Below are positions 4,768 to 45,402 of a stretch of 64,000 nucleotides of DNA, one piece after another. The stretch comes from Wenzhouxiangella sp. AB-CW3 (GTDB lineage Bacteria; Pseudomonadota; Gammaproteobacteria; Xanthomonadales; Wenzhouxiangellaceae). The notes below the pieces were generated by a model. That model saw only the letters and a program-made list of their open reading frames with translations, was not told the DNA's origin and did not search any database. Position numbers and translations under genes: made by a program. The stretch is taken from contig NZ_CP061368.1 of NCBI RefSeq assembly GCF_014725735.1, forward strand, positions 3,425,225-3,489,224. Reading direction: 5' to 3'. How positions within the stretch are numbered: position 1 is the first letter of the stretch; each line of letters begins with the position of its first letter.

Positions 4768-4973
4768 GGGCGGGTGGTGGTGCCTGTGTGGGCCGGCAGG
4801 ATGCGGAATCCTGCACTGATCCATCCGTCACCCGACACTTGATCAAAGCCCAATGCCGGCACCGCGGCCAACGAATCAGAGGAGCAATTTCGACGGCACC
4901 AGAACGCCACGACACCCGAAGCGCCAGCCACGCCGTTTACCCTGCCGGCCCACACAGGCACCGCTACCCGCCC
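4768..4973 (-). repeat. Family A palindromic element, copy A1
   Basis: Two 33-bp arms (4768-4800 and 4941-4973) are inverted copies of each other with two mismatches, separated by 140 bases. On the minus strand the interior carries the core GTGGCGTTCTGGTGCC (4895-4910), preceded by GGCGCTTC. The same core appears in copies A2 and A3, whose arms are unrelated. The right arm touches the stop codon of the S9 peptidase gene, so a read-through transcript would place the fold at the very start of the 3' UTR. With the marC leader, it fills the gene-free interval 4653-4973. Confidence 0.8.
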
Positions 4974-7475
4974 CTACTCCTCCCCCGCTTCGGGGTAGAG
5001 GTGATACCACCACTCCCGCTCGTCCTTCAGCCAGTAGTCGAACCAGGCCAACATGGTGTCCCACCAGACGTAGCGCTGCTCGCGGTCCAGGATATGATGA
5101 TCCTCGCCGGGAAACTCGATCAGCTCAACATCGCGATCAAGCAGCTTGAGCGCGGTATACATGTTGTGGCTCTCGCCCGGCGGCACGTTGGTATCGGCAT
5201 CGCCGGTCACCAGCAGCAGCGGCGTGGTGATCTGGTCGGCCGAGTAGACCGGGCTCTGACCCACGTAGAGCTCGGGGTTGTTCCACGGGAAGGAGCCACG
5301 GCTGGCAATACCCGAGTAGCCATAGCCCCACCAGCCTTCGCCCCAGTAGGAAGTCAGCGCGCTGATGCCGGCATGCGAGATGGACGCGGCATACAGGTCG
5401 GTCAGCGTGGCCAGATGCATGGTCATGAAGCCACCGTAGCTGGCGCCGATGTTGCCGATGCGATCGCCGTCGATGAACTCGTGCGCCTCGACGAACTGCT
5501 CCGTGCCCTCGATGATGTCATGGGCGGTGTACTTGCCCCACGCATTGACATGAAGCGCCGAGAACTCCTGGCCGTAGCCAATGGTGCCGCGCGGCTGCAG
5601 CACGTAGACCACATAGCCCTGCGCGGCCCAGAGATGGAAGGGATAGCGGCCGGTGAACTGGCGATTGACCGGCGTCGTGCCACCGTAGTAGTACACGATC
5701 AGCGGGTAGTGCTGGTCGGGCTCGAAGTCCGGCGGCAGGTAATAGCGCCCCTCGATCTCGTCTCCATCGGTATTGACAAACGACCAGGCCTCGACCGCGG
5801 CCAGCTCGACATCGACGTACTCGGTCTCGGCGCTATCGATCAGGACACTGTGCCGGTTGCGGTTGAGATCGACGGTATGAACCCGCTGCGGGCGGTCAGC
5901 GTCAGTGCCGCGGAGCACCACCAGGGGGCGGCGGGTTTCGGATGCGGAAAAGGACTCCATGACCTCAACGCCGGTGTCGATCTCGACCCAGCGTTCGCGC
6001 CCGGCCTCGAAGCGCAGCAGTATCACCCGCTCACCCGATACGGCCGACAGCAGCAAATCGCCGTCGGGCAGGCGATGGATGCCGGACAATGACGGATCGA
6101 GCTCCCGGCTGACGCTGGTCGCGGTCTCGCCGTCGGCGCTCAGCCGATACAGCTGGGTGTCGTATTCATTGGGGGTGCGTTTCTCTCCGGTTGTCGCACC
6201 ATCGCCCTGGGGCAGACCCGGCCCGGCCAGCAACCAGTAGCCTTGATCGGCGAACAGGGCACCGTTGAACAGGCGGTACTGGCCCACCTCGCTGCGTTCG
6301 AGGGTATCCAGATCGACTTCGAACAGCCGAAACAGGCTGTGCGGCGGTTCGCTGTAATCGATGATGCGCTCCGAAACGAGCAGCCTGTCGCCTTCGGGAT
6401 GGATGTCCTGCAGCATGACCGACTGGTCGCCTGCGGTCAGCGGGCGAATCAGGCCACTGGCGACATCCACCTGGTAGAGCTGGGTATTGTCACGAAATCC
6501 GGCCCAGCGATCTTCCAGCGATCGGATCCGGCGCACCCTGGCGTTGTCGTCTTCGTAGGGCGCGTTCCAGGCAAAGATGACAGAGCCCGAATCCGGGTGC
6601 CAGCGCCAGCTACCAACCTGCTCGTGATTGGCCAGCAGCAGGCTGGCGCGCCCCGACTCCGCTTCATGCAGCCACAGATTGTCACCATCCTGCACGGCCA
6701 GCCAGGCGCCATCCGGGCTCCAGGCCAGCGCCCCTGGTCGATGAGCGGTCCACTGCCGTTCGATCCGGCCGGTGGACAGCTCGCGGATCTCAAGACGCTG
6801 GATATCCAGATCGGCGGCGTCGCTGCGGGCATCGAAAGCCAGGGCGAGGTAGCGCCCATCGGGAGAAACAGCCTTGCTGCTGACCGTCTCGGCATTGGTC
6901 AGGCGCTCGGGTGAGACCCGACGGGTCGGCTCGACATGAAACGCCGGTGTGTCGTGCGTCTCGCGCCCCTGCCAGGATATTTGCGGCGCGCCGTCCTCCT
7001 CCCGTCCATGACTGGTGATCCAGAGCGTATGCGTGCCATTGCGCAGGTGGAGCTCAAAGCCATCATCGCCGGCGCTGACCTCGCGACCGGCCAGAAACAG
7101 GCGCGGTCGTTCGACCTGCTCGACCAGCAGGCGCCCGCTGACAAAACGCCTGGCTTCGACCTGGACCGCCCAGAGCCAGATCCGGTCATCATCCGGCAGC
7201 TCTTGCGGGCTCATTCTCTGCCACTGGAGCGTGGTATCGAAAAAGCGCTGCTCTACGCCGTGGCGCGGCAGGCCACCGGCCATCTGCTGCATCACCATTG
7301 CCCGCGCCATCTCGTCGCGCTTGTCGGACTGGCCGGCGATATCGGTGACGATGGGCATGGGACCGAGCGCCAGCACTTCCTCCACCGGTAGCGGCTCGAC
7401 ATCGTCGGCCCAGGCGGCAGAGCAGGCCAGGATCAGCAGGGCGAGGATCGAAAGCGATCGGGTTGACAACGGCAT
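4974..7475 (-). CDS. Exported prolyl oligopeptidase family (S9) serine peptidase
   Basis: An 833-residue periplasmic peptidase of the S9 alpha/beta-hydrolase family. A signal peptide (MPLSTRSLSILALLILACSAAWA) is followed by a long beta-propeller region with repeated LAWSPDGAWLA-like strands. The catalytic domain begins at about residue 590 (YYYGGTTPVNRQF). The nucleophile is in GASYGGFM, the Asp in TGDADTNVPP and the His in GEDHHI. Such enzymes usually act as dipeptidyl- or oligopeptidases on peptides taken from outside. With the M14 enzyme at 9937-12492 it suggests use of protein as food. It is divergent from hemN. Confidence 0.92.
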   Translation of the reverse strand: MPLSTRSLSILALLILACSAAWADDVEPLPVEEVLALGPMPIVTDIAGQSDKRDEMARAMVMQQMAGGLPRHGVEQRFFDTTLQWQRMSPQELPDDDRIWLWAVQVEARRFVSGRLLVEQVERPRLFLAGREVSAGDDGFELHLRNGTHTLWITSHGREEDGAPQISWQGRETHDTPAFHVEPTRRVSPERLTNAETVSSKAVSPDGRYLALAFDARSDAADLDIQRLEIRELSTGRIERQWTAHRPGALAWSPDGAWLAVQDGDNLWLHEAESGRASLLLANHEQVGSWRWHPDSGSVIFAWNAPYEDDNARVRRIRSLEDRWAGFRDNTQLYQVDVASGLIRPLTAGDQSVMLQDIHPEGDRLLVSERIIDYSEPPHSLFRLFEVDLDTLERSEVGQYRLFNGALFADQGYWLLAGPGLPQGDGATTGEKRTPNEYDTQLYRLSADGETATSVSRELDPSLSGIHRLPDGDLLLSAVSGERVILLRFEAGRERWVEIDTGVEVMESFSASETRRPLVVLRGTDADRPQRVHTVDLNRNRHSVLIDSAETEYVDVELAAVEAWSFVNTDGDEIEGRYYLPPDFEPDQHYPLIVYYYGGTTPVNRQFTGRYPFHLWAAQGYVVYVLQPRGTIGYGQEFSALHVNAWGKYTAHDIIEGTEQFVEAHEFIDGDRIGNIGASYGGFMTMHLATLTDLYAASISHAGISALTSYWGEGWWGYGYSGIASRGSFPWNNPELYVGQSPVYSADQITTPLLLVTGDADTNVPPGESHNMYTALKLLDRDVELIEFPGEDHHILDREQRYVWWDTMLAWFDYWLKDEREWWYHLYPEAGEE

Positions 7476-13226: not shown

Positions 13227-13235
13227 GGGGGAGGG

Positions 13236-13449
13236 AAACCGGGTGGTACCGGGCGGCGGGCTGCCTACATCGGCGTTCGGCGGGAGTGGCCGCTTCCGAG
13301 ACCGGTGGCGTTTTGGTGCCAGTAAAATTTTGTCGGAGTCGCATCAGATCGCGAGTTTGTCTGGCTGCATGGTGCCTGGGACAGGACGGATGTTCTGGCG
13401 GTTCTTCCGCGCCGATTCCGGCAGCCCGCCGCCCGGCACCACCCGGTTT
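13236..13449 (+). repeat. Family A palindromic element, copy A2
   Basis: Arms 13236-13265 and 13420-13449 are 30-bp inverted copies with one mismatch. The 154-base interior carries the core GTGGCGTTTTGGTGCC (13305-13320), one base different from A1 and A3, preceded by CCGCTTC. The core points the same way as the upstream PEBP-like gene. It occupies much of the gene-free interval 13227-13715; the rest is the glnA control region. Confidence 0.8.
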
Positions 13450-13548
13450 GAAAGGGTTGGAGGAAAGTAAAGGATTGGTCGTGCCGATTTCTATCCTTGC
13501 TGCATTTTCAAGCTTGTTGACCTGCCCGAGCGCCACCAATTAAGGTGT

Positions 13549-41268: not shown

Positions 41269-43683
41269 ATGGCCAAGAACCTTCTCATTGTCGAGTCGCC
41301 GGCGAAAGCGACCACCATCAACAAGTACCTCGGCACCGACTTCGAAGTGCTGGCGTCCTACGGACACGTGCGTGATCTGGTACCCAAGGAGGGTGCGGTC
41401 GATCCCGACAACGATTTCGCCATGCGCTACGACATCATCGAGCGCAACAAGAAGCATGTCGACAAGATTGTCTCGGCTGCACGCAAGGCCGATGCGATTT
41501 ACCTGGCGACTGACCTTGACCGCGAAGGTGAAGCCATTTCCTGGCATATTGCCGAGATTCTCAGGCAGCGTGGCATCAATTCCGACAAACCCATTCAGCG
41601 CGTGGTGTTTTCGGAGATCACCGAACGCGCCCTGAAGAAGGCCATGGAAGAACCGCGTGACCTGGCCGGATCCCTGGTCGATGCCCAGCAGGCCCGGCGC
41701 GCGCTGGACTACCTGGTCGGCTTCAATCTCTCCCCGCTGCTGTGGAAGAAGGTTCGCCGGGGCCTGTCGGCCGGCCGCGTGCAGTCTCCGGCACTGCGGA
41801 TGATCGTCGAGCGCGAGGAAGAGATCGAGAAATTCCAGCCGCAGGAATACTGGACTATCGAGGCCGATCTGGGTGAGGGCGAGGACAAGCAGTTCAGCGC
41901 CAGCCTGGTGCGCCTGGACGGCAGCAAGCTCGAGCAGTTCGACATCGACAACGCCGAACGGGCCGAACAGGTTCGCGAGCAGATCGAGCGTGATGCCGGT
42001 GGCCAGTTCCCGGTTTCGCGGGTCAAGAAGAGTCAGCGACGCCGGCGTCCGCAGCCACCGTTCATCACCTCCACGCTGCAACAGGAAGCCGCGCGCCGAC
42101 TCCGCTTTACCACCCAGCGCACCATGCGCATTGCCCAGCAGCTCTACGAAGGGGTGGATACCGGGGGCGGCAACCAGGGCCTGATCACCTATATGCGTAC
42201 CGATTCGGTCGCCCTGGCCGCCGATGCGATCAGCGAAATCCGCTCGGTCGTCGGCAAGGAGTTCGGCAGCGGCCTGGTCCCGGACAAGCCCAACTTCTAC
42301 CAGTCGAAGTCGAAGAACGCGCAGGAAGCGCACGAATCCATTCGTCCAACTTCGGCGAAGCTCACGCCCATCAAGCTCAAGCACCACCTGAGTGAAGACC
42401 AGTACAAGCTCTACCAGCTGATCTGGAACCGGGCCGTGGCCAGCCAGATGATCCCGGCGGTCTACGACACGGTCAGCGCCGAGTTCGACGTCGGCGAGGC
42501 CACCTTCCGGGCTTCGGGCTCGACCCTTATCGAGCCGGGCTTTCTCAAGGTCTACCAGGACGCGCGCGCCGAGGCCGACAACCGGCTGCCCGAACTCAAC
42601 GAGGGCGACCGCATTGCCCTGCAGGCGATCCGGCCCGAACAGCATTTCACCGAGCCGCCGCCGCGCTATTCGGAGGCCAGCCTGGTCAAGGCACTGGAGG
42701 AATTCGGCATTGGCCGCCCCTCGACCTATGCCTCGATCATCCAGACCCTCAAGGATCGCGAGTACGTCGATCTCGAGAACCGGCGCTTCACTCCCACGGC
42801 CACCGGCTGGGTGGTGGCCAAGTTCCTGTCGGAGCACTTTGACCGCTACGTCGACTACGACTTCACCGCCCGGCTCGAAGACGAACTCGATGCCGTTTCA
42901 CGCGGTGAAAGCGACTGGGTTCCGTTGCTCAAGGAATTTTGGCAACCCTTTATCGACCGGGTCAAGGAAAAGAACGAAACGGTCAGCCGCAAGCAGGCCC
43001 AGCAGGCGCGCGAACTGGGCACCGACCCCAAGTCCGGCAGACCGGTCATCGTGCGGCTGGGACGCTACGGTCCCTTCGCCCAGATCGGTGATGCCGAAGA
43101 CGAGGAGAAACCCCAGTTTGCCGGGCTGAGACCCGGGCAGCGCATGGACTCCATCACGCTGGAAGAGGCACTGGAACTGTTCAAGCTGCCACGCGACCTG
43201 GGCGAGACGCCGGAAGGCGAACCGGTGCAGGCCAACATCGGTCGCTTCGGCCCCTACATCCGCTACGGCAAGCGCAACTTCGTTTCGCTCAAGGAACACG
43301 ACCCGCACGAGGTCACCCTGGAGCAGGCGCTGGAACTGGTCGAGGCGCACAAGAAGGCCCAGCGCGAACGCATCATCCAGAACTTCGAGGCCGAGGGCAT
43401 CCAGGTCCTCAAGGGCCGCTACGGCCCCTTCGTCACCGACGGCAACCGCAACGCCAGCGTACCCAAGGACCAGGAACCGGAGAAGCTGACCCTGGAAGAA
43501 TGCCAGAAGATGCTCGCCGAAGCGCCCCCCAAGGGCCGACGCGGCAAGTTCGGCAAGAAGAAGGCCGGCGCCAAGAAGGCAGCGAGCAAGAAGACCGCCA
43601 AGAAGAAGGCCTCGAAGAAAAAGAAGAAGAAAAAGCGCTCGAAGAAGAAGGCTTCAAAAAAGAAGGCCGCTTCGAAGGCCTGA
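41269..43683 (+). CDS. topA: DNA topoisomerase I
   Basis: An 804-residue type IA topoisomerase that relaxes negative supercoils. A TOPRIM domain is at the N-terminus (LLIVESPAKATTI; ATDLDREGEAISWH), and the active-site tyrosine is Tyr308 in GLITYMRTDSVAL. The C-terminal region has topoisomerase-C repeats (GRFGPYIRYGKRNF; GRYGPFVTDGNRN) rather than the zinc ribbons of E. coli. The last ~45 residues are mostly lysine with Ala and Ser, a disordered basic tail likely to hold DNA or RNA polymerase. Confidence 0.97.
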   Translation: MAKNLLIVESPAKATTINKYLGTDFEVLASYGHVRDLVPKEGAVDPDNDFAMRYDIIERNKKHVDKIVSAARKADAIYLATDLDREGEAISWHIAEILRQRGINSDKPIQRVVFSEITERALKKAMEEPRDLAGSLVDAQQARRALDYLVGFNLSPLLWKKVRRGLSAGRVQSPALRMIVEREEEIEKFQPQEYWTIEADLGEGEDKQFSASLVRLDGSKLEQFDIDNAERAEQVREQIERDAGGQFPVSRVKKSQRRRRPQPPFITSTLQQEAARRLRFTTQRTMRIAQQLYEGVDTGGGNQGLITYMRTDSVALAADAISEIRSVVGKEFGSGLVPDKPNFYQSKSKNAQEAHESIRPTSAKLTPIKLKHHLSEDQYKLYQLIWNRAVASQMIPAVYDTVSAEFDVGEATFRASGSTLIEPGFLKVYQDARAEADNRLPELNEGDRIALQAIRPEQHFTEPPPRYSEASLVKALEEFGIGRPSTYASIIQTLKDREYVDLENRRFTPTATGWVVAKFLSEHFDRYVDYDFTARLEDELDAVSRGESDWVPLLKEFWQPFIDRVKEKNETVSRKQAQQARELGTDPKSGRPVIVRLGRYGPFAQIGDAEDEEKPQFAGLRPGQRMDSITLEEALELFKLPRDLGETPEGEPVQANIGRFGPYIRYGKRNFVSLKEHDPHEVTLEQALELVEAHKKAQRERIIQNFEAEGIQVLKGRYGPFVTDGNRNASVPKDQEPEKLTLEECQKMLAEAPPKGRRGKFGKKKAGAKKAASKKTAKKKASKKKKKKKRSKKKASKKKAASKA

Positions 43684-43722
43684 AGCCGTTAGCGTACCAG
43701 CGTCCCATGGTGCTGTGGGCTT

Positions 43723-43974
43723 AGAGTAGATAGGATTGATGGTGGCGGGGTGGGGAGCGGCCTTGCCCGTGGCCGGAACCGAGGTGAATCGCTGTGTTGG
43801 CGCTTCGAGCATGGTGGCGTTCTGGTGCCGATGAATAATGCCGTGCCAATGGACTTTCCCTGCGACTGATCGAACGTTTCGGGTACGTGCGGCGCGGACA
43901 GTCTGTGCCAGCTTCCATCACCTCGAACCCGGCCACGGGCAAGACCACTCCCCACCTGACGTGTGAGAGTAGAT
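43723..43974 (+). repeat. Family A palindromic element, copy A3, with flanking direct repeats
   Basis: Arms 43749-43787 and 43918-43956 are 39-bp inverted copies with five mismatches. The interior carries the core GTGGCGTTCTGGTGCC (43814-43829), identical to A1, preceded by GGCGCTTC. The unit is bracketed by the 9-base direct repeat AGAGTAGAT (43723-43731 and 43966-43974), which looks like a target-site duplication. The core points the same way as topA, which ends 39 bases before the first direct repeat. Confidence 0.8.
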
Positions 43975-44071
43975 TGATAGAGAAAACCAAGACGGTGCCA
44001 CCACCCTGCCTTTCAACCTTCTCTAACTCTTCATAGCGGGGGGTATTCGGTCGAGCACGGACTCACGACTC

Positions 44072-44233
44072 ACTAACGAGATCACCAATCAGCAGGCTTT
44101 CAGCTTGTCTCTCAGCGTTCGTGGCAAGGCGTCGTCGCGCCAGGTGTAGCAGGGTCTACATCAAGCGACGAGAACGCAGCCCACGGGCGCTGAGAGACAA
44201 GCTGAAAGCCTGCTGATTGGTGATCTCGTTAGT
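44072..44233. repeat. Family B palindromic element, copy B1
   Basis: Arms 44072-44117 and 44188-44233 are perfect 46-bp inverted repeats. The 70-base interior continues as an imperfect stem: GTGGCAAGGCG (44121-44131) faces TCAAGCGACGAGAACGCAGCCCACG (44161-44185), closed by an apical hairpin TGTAG-CAGGGT-CTACA (44146-44161). The two internal strands recur in copy B2, while the outer arms do not. Bases 44234-44472, up to hemF, hold no feature I can name beyond a likely promoter. Confidence 0.85.
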
Positions 44234-44439
44234 CAAGGGGTGACGGAATAATCGCCACACTTCTCCCGGTCCATCCCAAGCAGCAAGCGCCTTGTCGAAA
44301 CTGACCAATCCATCAGCGACAACACGCCAATCGTATCGACGCAAGGGCCACCCAACCCAAACGACCCGAAAAAGCCAATCACCCGCCCAGGCCGTGATCG
44401 ACCGGATGCCACCCGCCACCACCCCACATTCTTGTGTAA

Positions 44440-45402
<963 letters not shown>

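Follow-up and report, generated by a model that had tools for sequence, protein, structure and literature searches.

What kind of repeat keeps a long hairpin in each of its copies while the sequence of that hairpin is exchanged? The question is raised by three sequences in a 64,000-nucleotide stretch of the Wenzhouxiangella sp. AB-CW3 genome (hereafter, the window). A preliminary description, made from the sequence alone, reported three copies of a short core there, each set between inverted arms that match within a copy and differ between copies, and suggested either a structured 3'-UTR RNA or a foldback DNA element. The genome (CP061368) is given as 3.84 Mb with 61.8% GC (PMC7691419). We report a computational analysis of this repeat, named family A, of which our literature searches found no description.

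Identification of the repeat family

The exact core, GTGGCGTTYTGGTGCC, occurs three times in the window as first described, at 4895-4910 (minus strand), 13305-13320 (plus) and 43814-43829 (plus). With up to three mismatches the window holds four occurrences, no clear excess over shuffled sequence, in which the mean is 1.96 and 15 of 100 shuffles have at least four. The proposed genome-wide search found the core with at most one mismatch at 11 places in AB-CW3, six of them exact, against none for the reversed pattern; the tail pattern CCGCYTGAAAGGTTGG showed no advantage over its control (10 against 8).

Self-pairing long arms surround 10 of these 11 places, L010 having lost its 3' arm. When two further genomes with many cores (G094 and G197) were included, arms of 19-41 nt were found at 42 of 44 core copies, the exceptions being L010 and L079; the family, against which arm-less copies had been held to count, therefore stands, and it is larger than was thought. 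In the window the arms lie where they had been placed, for example 43749-43787 with 43918-43956 (39 nt, 87% complementary), and each of the three copies folds better than every one of its 200 shuffles (z -4.75, -7.34 and -7.37). In each of these copies the core is oriented like the gene that precedes it (topA, a PBP-family protein and an S9 peptidase). Two parts of the description needed narrowing. The arm pairs had been called unrelated: the copies at 4768 and 13236 do have private arms, but the 43749 copy shares its arms with other copies (L001, L007). The CGCTTC motif before the core is present in the three window copies and missing from several other family A copies.

The features of the window are as follows.

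43748..43966, minus strand: domain 1 of the full-length element, the strand given being that on which the fold appears to be selected (cmsearch, 178.9 bits); arms 43749-43787 and 43918-43956
43814..43829, plus strand: the conserved core, GTGGCGTTCTGGTGCC, which reads GGCACCAGAACGCCAC on the selected strand and lies within the loop (pattern search)
43957..44034, no strand assigned: central segment with halves able to pair (GAGAGTAGATTGAT.../...TTTCAACCTTCTCT; pairing by eye)
44035..44421, plus strand: domain 3, which is inverted relative to domain 1, has diverged from it and is interrupted by a later insertion (cmsearch, 63.3 bits for 44202-44421; orthologues in genomes G202 and G204 intact)
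44061..44236, outer limits approximate, no strand assigned: a "family B" hairpin repeat inside domain 3, not family A; arms 44072-44124 and 44181-44233
13234..13460, minus strand: solo domain (148.2 bits) with private arms at 13236-13275 and 13410-13449, beginning 9 nt past a stop codon
4756..4976, plus strand: solo domain (141.1 bits) with private arms at 4768-4800 and 4941-4973, directly after the stop codon of the minus-strand gene 4974-7475

The full-length element (~480 bp) thus consists of domain 1, a central segment with pairable halves and the inverted, diverged domain 3. The domain had been placed correctly, but the element runs past position 43974, the last one of the piece described, to about 44421 as an inverted second domain. 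A GAGTAGATTGAT-like motif occupies the left half of the central segment in 25 of 28 copies of the subfamily to which the 43748 element belongs. The family B hairpin, whose 53-nt arms are 96% complementary, is lacking at the orthologous site in G202 and G204. Other genomes of the genus also carry family B-like sequence (e.g. G119, G144, G089 and G037); there the left arm and loop seem to be conserved from copy to copy, which distinguishes them from family A.

Conservation of the stem and composition of the loop

The unit of the family is a domain of ~220 bp, in which a stem of ~38 bp closes a loop of ~130-140 nt that holds conserved motifs including the core. In a MAFFT alignment of 35 domains, read on the strand opposite the core, the RNAalifold consensus was a single stem of 29 pairs, 28 of which show changes on both sides. 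Paired cells made up 94.6% of the alignment, against 66.5% in shuffles and 33.6-42.1% with the partners slid, the structure being favoured over the slid versions as it was derived from the same alignment. The covariation score was 0.722 against 0.220 in shuffles, none of 500 shuffles scoring as high. The closing stem is therefore kept while its sequence is replaced, as had been proposed, and this suggests that the shape of the hairpin is what is recognised.

Across 142 domain rows the best ungapped stem has a median length of 38 bp, and the stem sequences fall into 34 arm clusters, two of them large (35 and 33 rows) and 17 singletons. Several stems are perfect or nearly so, e.g. L008 with 38 of 38 pairs. 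The stem is composed of a short semi-conserved base and another 25-30 base pairs in which any letters are allowed provided that they pair. The loop carries the strong motifs CGGA, GGCACC...CGCC and GCCG and the weaker motifs CCATCCG, ATTT and TCGAA, and when 56 loops were aligned with MAFFT, RNAalifold gave no internal helix common to them. On the selected strand 34 loops average 34% C, 25% G, 25% A and 16% T, and the minimum free energy of the loop is weaker on that strand in 31 of the 34. Compared with their own dinucleotide shuffles the loops fold no less (z about 0), so the openness of the loop is a matter of composition.

Replacement of stem letters can also be followed in place, at solo loci that share the same flanking gene. 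Between the 13236 copy and its counterpart in G204, 27 of 38 pairs are the same, five have changed on one side and six on both, and none is lost. The remaining comparisons are with G197: L008 (38 pairs) has 31 the same, five two-sided changes and two lost; the 4768 copy (33 pairs) has 28 the same, two one-sided changes and three lost; and L011 (33 pairs) has 32 the same and one one-sided change. The 13236 site of G202 and G197 retains only a short hairpin-like sequence, which we read as a deletion remnant. L011 and its G197 counterpart, L078, are 99% identical across the domain, as compared with 75-83% for the other three pairs, and this near-identity may reflect a recent transfer. The family thereby offers an unusually clean natural record of a hairpin of about 40 bp whose pairing is kept, with compensatory change in nearly every modelled pair, over many copies per genome and several orthologous loci.

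The strand on which folding appears to be selected

A strand that is selected for folding should tolerate G-T mismatches and not A-C mismatches. On the core strand of domain 1, A-C or C-A mismatches number 50 and G-T or T-G mismatches 7; on that strand the inverted domain 3 has 48 G-T and 2 A-C. Both results point to the strand opposite the core. Over the 142 rows and 34 arm clusters, counting each mismatch position and type once per cluster, the strand opposite the core has 136 G-T, 32 A-C and 125 other mismatches. The excess is present on both arms (T-G 86 and G-T 50, against A-C 22 and C-A 10) and in the 17 singleton clusters alone (21 G-T against 6 A-C). Clusters still contain kin copies, and several G-T pairs occupy fixed positions, so that significance is judged fairly only per cluster: G-T is in excess in 21 clusters, A-C in 5 and neither in 8 (sign test, p 0.0025). 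One single strand, the one opposite the core, seems to be selected rather than the duplex. This asymmetry is a simple test that may be applied to other palindromic repeats.

The same result bears on the view that no structure is selected at all and that template switching or conversion within a quasi-palindrome keeps the arms alike. The perfect or nearly perfect stems, such as that of L008, agree with such a process, but it gives no reason for a G-T versus A-C asymmetry tied to the orientation of the core, nor for conserved loop motifs, and we consider it improbable.

Genomic position and a possible role as RNA

The 14 copies with their own arms, which include three pairs of orthologues, were placed relative to the ends of open frames of at least 134 codons. 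Eleven of the 14 start -2 to 24 nt from such a stop codon, the copies elsewhere being L009, L011 and L078. In a stricter rerun the figure was 10 of 14, at -2 to 22 nt, compared with 3 of 28 copies of the other, full-length-type subfamily and 418 of 8400 random positions (5.0%) drawn from the same loci. On the other side of the domain no own-arm copy (0 of 14) is near such a stop codon. According to the open reading frames, four other AB-CW3 domains are in sense orientation to a gene that they precede.

Such a position resembles that of a 3'-UTR hairpin, one that would stabilise or terminate the upstream mRNA, and the mRNA strand does fold strongly as well. Yet the selected strand is antisense to the mRNA of the stop-codon genes, and a plain 3'-UTR RNA is therefore weakened; on the mRNA strand the own-arm mismatches are 13 A-C against 2 G-T, so pairing is not tuned there, and the few full-length-type copies so near a stop codon (3 of 28) also speak against it. 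Of the two natures first suggested, the 3'-UTR RNA thus keeps its support from position and loses it from strand, and we judge it unlikely.

A structured RNA may instead be made from the selected strand, antisense to the 3' end of the neighbouring gene for solo domains, or acting as a bidirectional terminator or insulator for inverted pairs. It would account for the strand polarity of the mismatches, the C-rich and T-poor loop (34% C, 16% T) and the stop codons next to own-arm copies. A C-rich loop and 5' flank followed by a long hairpin could in principle form a Rho loading region, but the loop, though C-rich, is not G-poor (25% G, 25% A). A crude scan of one copy gave no promoter-like site in 43600-44600, and the genes on the 3' side of the domain are oriented both ways in the AB-CW3 genome, which also argues against such an RNA. 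So does the Rfam search, which placed no match on the element: the window at gathering score matched cspA only, elsewhere than the element, and L001-L006 at E values up to 5 gave three weak matches, none on it. No tRNA or tmRNA was detected by ARAGORN in 10 domain-bearing loci. By eye no T run follows the stem; the intrinsic terminator scan covered loops of 3-8 only. As G-T tolerance fits RNA as well as ssDNA and does not separate the two, the RNA explanation stays alongside the one that we favour below, as a possible if doubtful reading. The cspA thermoregulator match (RF01766, 118.2 bits) lies at 494-884 of the window.

Polarity, distribution and probable mobility

The AB-CW3 genome has about 26 distinct places among 37 model matches, the other 11 being 10 antisense matches of the same palindromes and one doubtful 40-nt fragment. 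Six close pairs were found in this genome, every one with its left domain on the minus and its right domain on the plus strand, and close inverted pairs in seven genomes have the same polarity. Departures from the simple pair are the L102 cluster in G144 (minus, plus, minus) and same-strand neighbours in G129, G163 and G183. No replication-strand bias was evident by eye among the AB-CW3 genome matches.

A covariance model of the family, as the preliminary description had advised, matches 25 of 30 genomes of the genus (E <= 0.01), with 0 to 54 raw matches per genome, counts that are inflated by antisense self-matches. Beyond the genus, one of 13 further genomes of the taxonomic family matches (the sister genome G158), and in an order-wide draw 26 of 299 genomes match, namely 23 of the genus, G158 and two marginal ones near E = 6e-6. 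All seven named matches to a two-part pattern are Wenzhouxiangella MAGs. Plasmid and phage records gave no match in a distant blastn search with window positions 43720-44062 (domain 1 and the centre), and viral contigs gave none to one gapped pattern.

Downstream of topA the element is present in AB-CW3 (G000), G202 and G204, in the intact two-domain form in the latter two, and 17 other genomes whose gap was readable have short spacers without it, although here and at the 13236 site the intergenic flanks are too diverged for an exact reading of the empty site. G044 contains tandem arrays of four domains, with periods of 226 and 228 bp and 91% matches. In G129, direct domain repeats that are 97.6% alike across 254 bp flank a MazF/PemK-like toxin gene. 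Mobility of family A, as earlier suggested, is likely in view of the lineage-specific bursts in copy number, the tandem arrays and the presence or absence at an orthologous site.

The preliminary description had taken a 9-base direct repeat, AGAGTAGAT, as consistent with mobility. This pair was rejected as a target duplication: the copy at 43966 is the element's own central segment and the copy at 43723 is within left-hand sequence that G202 and G204 also carry there in a variant form. Nor could it be a duplication around the whole element, because domain 3 extends beyond 43966. No target duplication was seen, no terminal inverted repeats were clear by eye at the outer ends, and no autonomous copy or longer copy with a transposase was noticed among the loci examined.

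Two of the loci above have further features. The G044 arrays (L232 and L233) adjoin one inverted domain, and a 53-bp stretch is repeated about twice per locus. In L114 (G129:C18), region 636-1197, the toxin gene (859-1197) and a candidate antitoxin gene before it lie between direct family A domains.

Proposed explanation and comparison with known systems

We tentatively favour the reading that family A is a non-coding, non-autonomous and probably mobile foldback element, the hairpin ends of which are recognised as a folded single strand. Each end of the element is a single-strand foldback domain of ~220 nt with a C-rich, T-poor loop. The fold, its strand polarity and the way in which domains are arranged are observed, whereas the enzyme, ssDNA as its substrate and the copying step are inferred. 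An enzyme acting in trans may recognise the folded strand by the shape of the stem and the loop motifs, with ssDNA slightly preferred over RNA as the substrate, and would copy the inverted pair to new places. Solo domains would then be remnants, many of which are presumably now hairpins just after stop codons. With this family two questions can be put to the test: by what means extragenic palindromes of such size spread in the absence of RAYT genes, and whether ssDNA or RNA is the form on which selection acts.

MITEs are short, non-coding elements with inverted ends, and family A is like them in these respects and in its lineage-specific bursts. It differs in that its ends are related by fold and loop motifs and not by a fixed terminal sequence. 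A target duplication is not seen, exact empty sites being unreadable. The bcr repeats of Bacillus are dispersed, intergenic and have RNA-like conserved folds, as has family A, but would differ from it in that their stems keep their sequence.

The attC sites of integrons have R boxes, RYYYAAC ... GTTRRRY, at the base of the stem. Family A domains could be seen as oversized attC sites folded on the bottom strand: the hairpin is kept while its sequence varies, it is read on one strand, own-arm copies come after stop codons, direct domain repeats at one place enclose a MazF-like toxin gene, and integron integrases score above cut-off in 12 of the 30 genomes of the genus. The size and loop differ, however, and the boxes are present at the ends of none of the 142 domain rows on either strand. 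The presence of the integrase (TIGR02249) does not track domain counts: G009 carries an integrase but lacks domains, and in the domain-rich G094, G197, G202 and G203 no integrase scores above cut-off (G202 and G203 being incomplete). The attC reading is largely refuted by the box test and is very improbable. AB-CW3 has one integron integrase above the family cut-off, L279 (G000:C1:3826971-3827912), and 11 others of the 30 genomes also have one.

Family A also resembles REP sequences and REPINs. REPINs are described as inverted doublets that form clusters, leave remnants and undergo compensatory change in their hairpin spacer (PMC3116915), and a REP as a palindromic unit of 20-40 bp (PMC3733652). 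On these accounts family A, like REPINs, REP doublets and BIMEs, is extragenic and in many cases follows a gene; it forms inverted doublets around a short centre as well as tandem clusters, has singlets that are read as remnants, shows compensatory changes in the hairpin and is proposed to be mobilised in trans as a folded single strand (PMC3116915, PMC3733652). It differs in size, with a domain of ~220 bp and a median stem of 38 bp against a whole unit of 20-40 bp (PMC3733652), in a loop of ~130-140 nt that holds conserved motifs, and in that its variable pairing part is inside each domain and not between two REPs. The tags GTAG and CGTC occur in 1 and 10 of the 142 rows, respectively, when the 15 nt on the 5' side of the stem are read on the selected strand. 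The RAYT (Y1) family PF01797 is found in 9 of the 30 genomes of the genus, with six in AB-CW3 and one in G200, and in none of the copy-rich G094, G197, G089, G202, G203 and G204, some of these assemblies being incomplete. A RAYT/IS200 enzyme was accordingly rejected as the mobiliser, as the presence of the gene does not match domain counts. Family A works like a REPIN and, given its size, tags and transposase distribution, is not one on the features tested.

It is conceivable, though we hold this with less confidence, that the repeat represents a hitherto undescribed class of mobile element. The ends of such an element would combine a very long, strand-specific and sequence-free hairpin with motifs in a large open loop, the stem would drift without limit while the element keeps moving, and the enzyme would be neither a RAYT/IS200 transposase nor an integron integrase.

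In AB-CW3 a Y1-type transposase gene, L252 (G000:C1:1203214-1203576), is separated by ~125 bases from the paired family A element that occupies 1202609-1203088, and an equal-scoring Y1-type match is located at 1518222-1518584 of the same genome.
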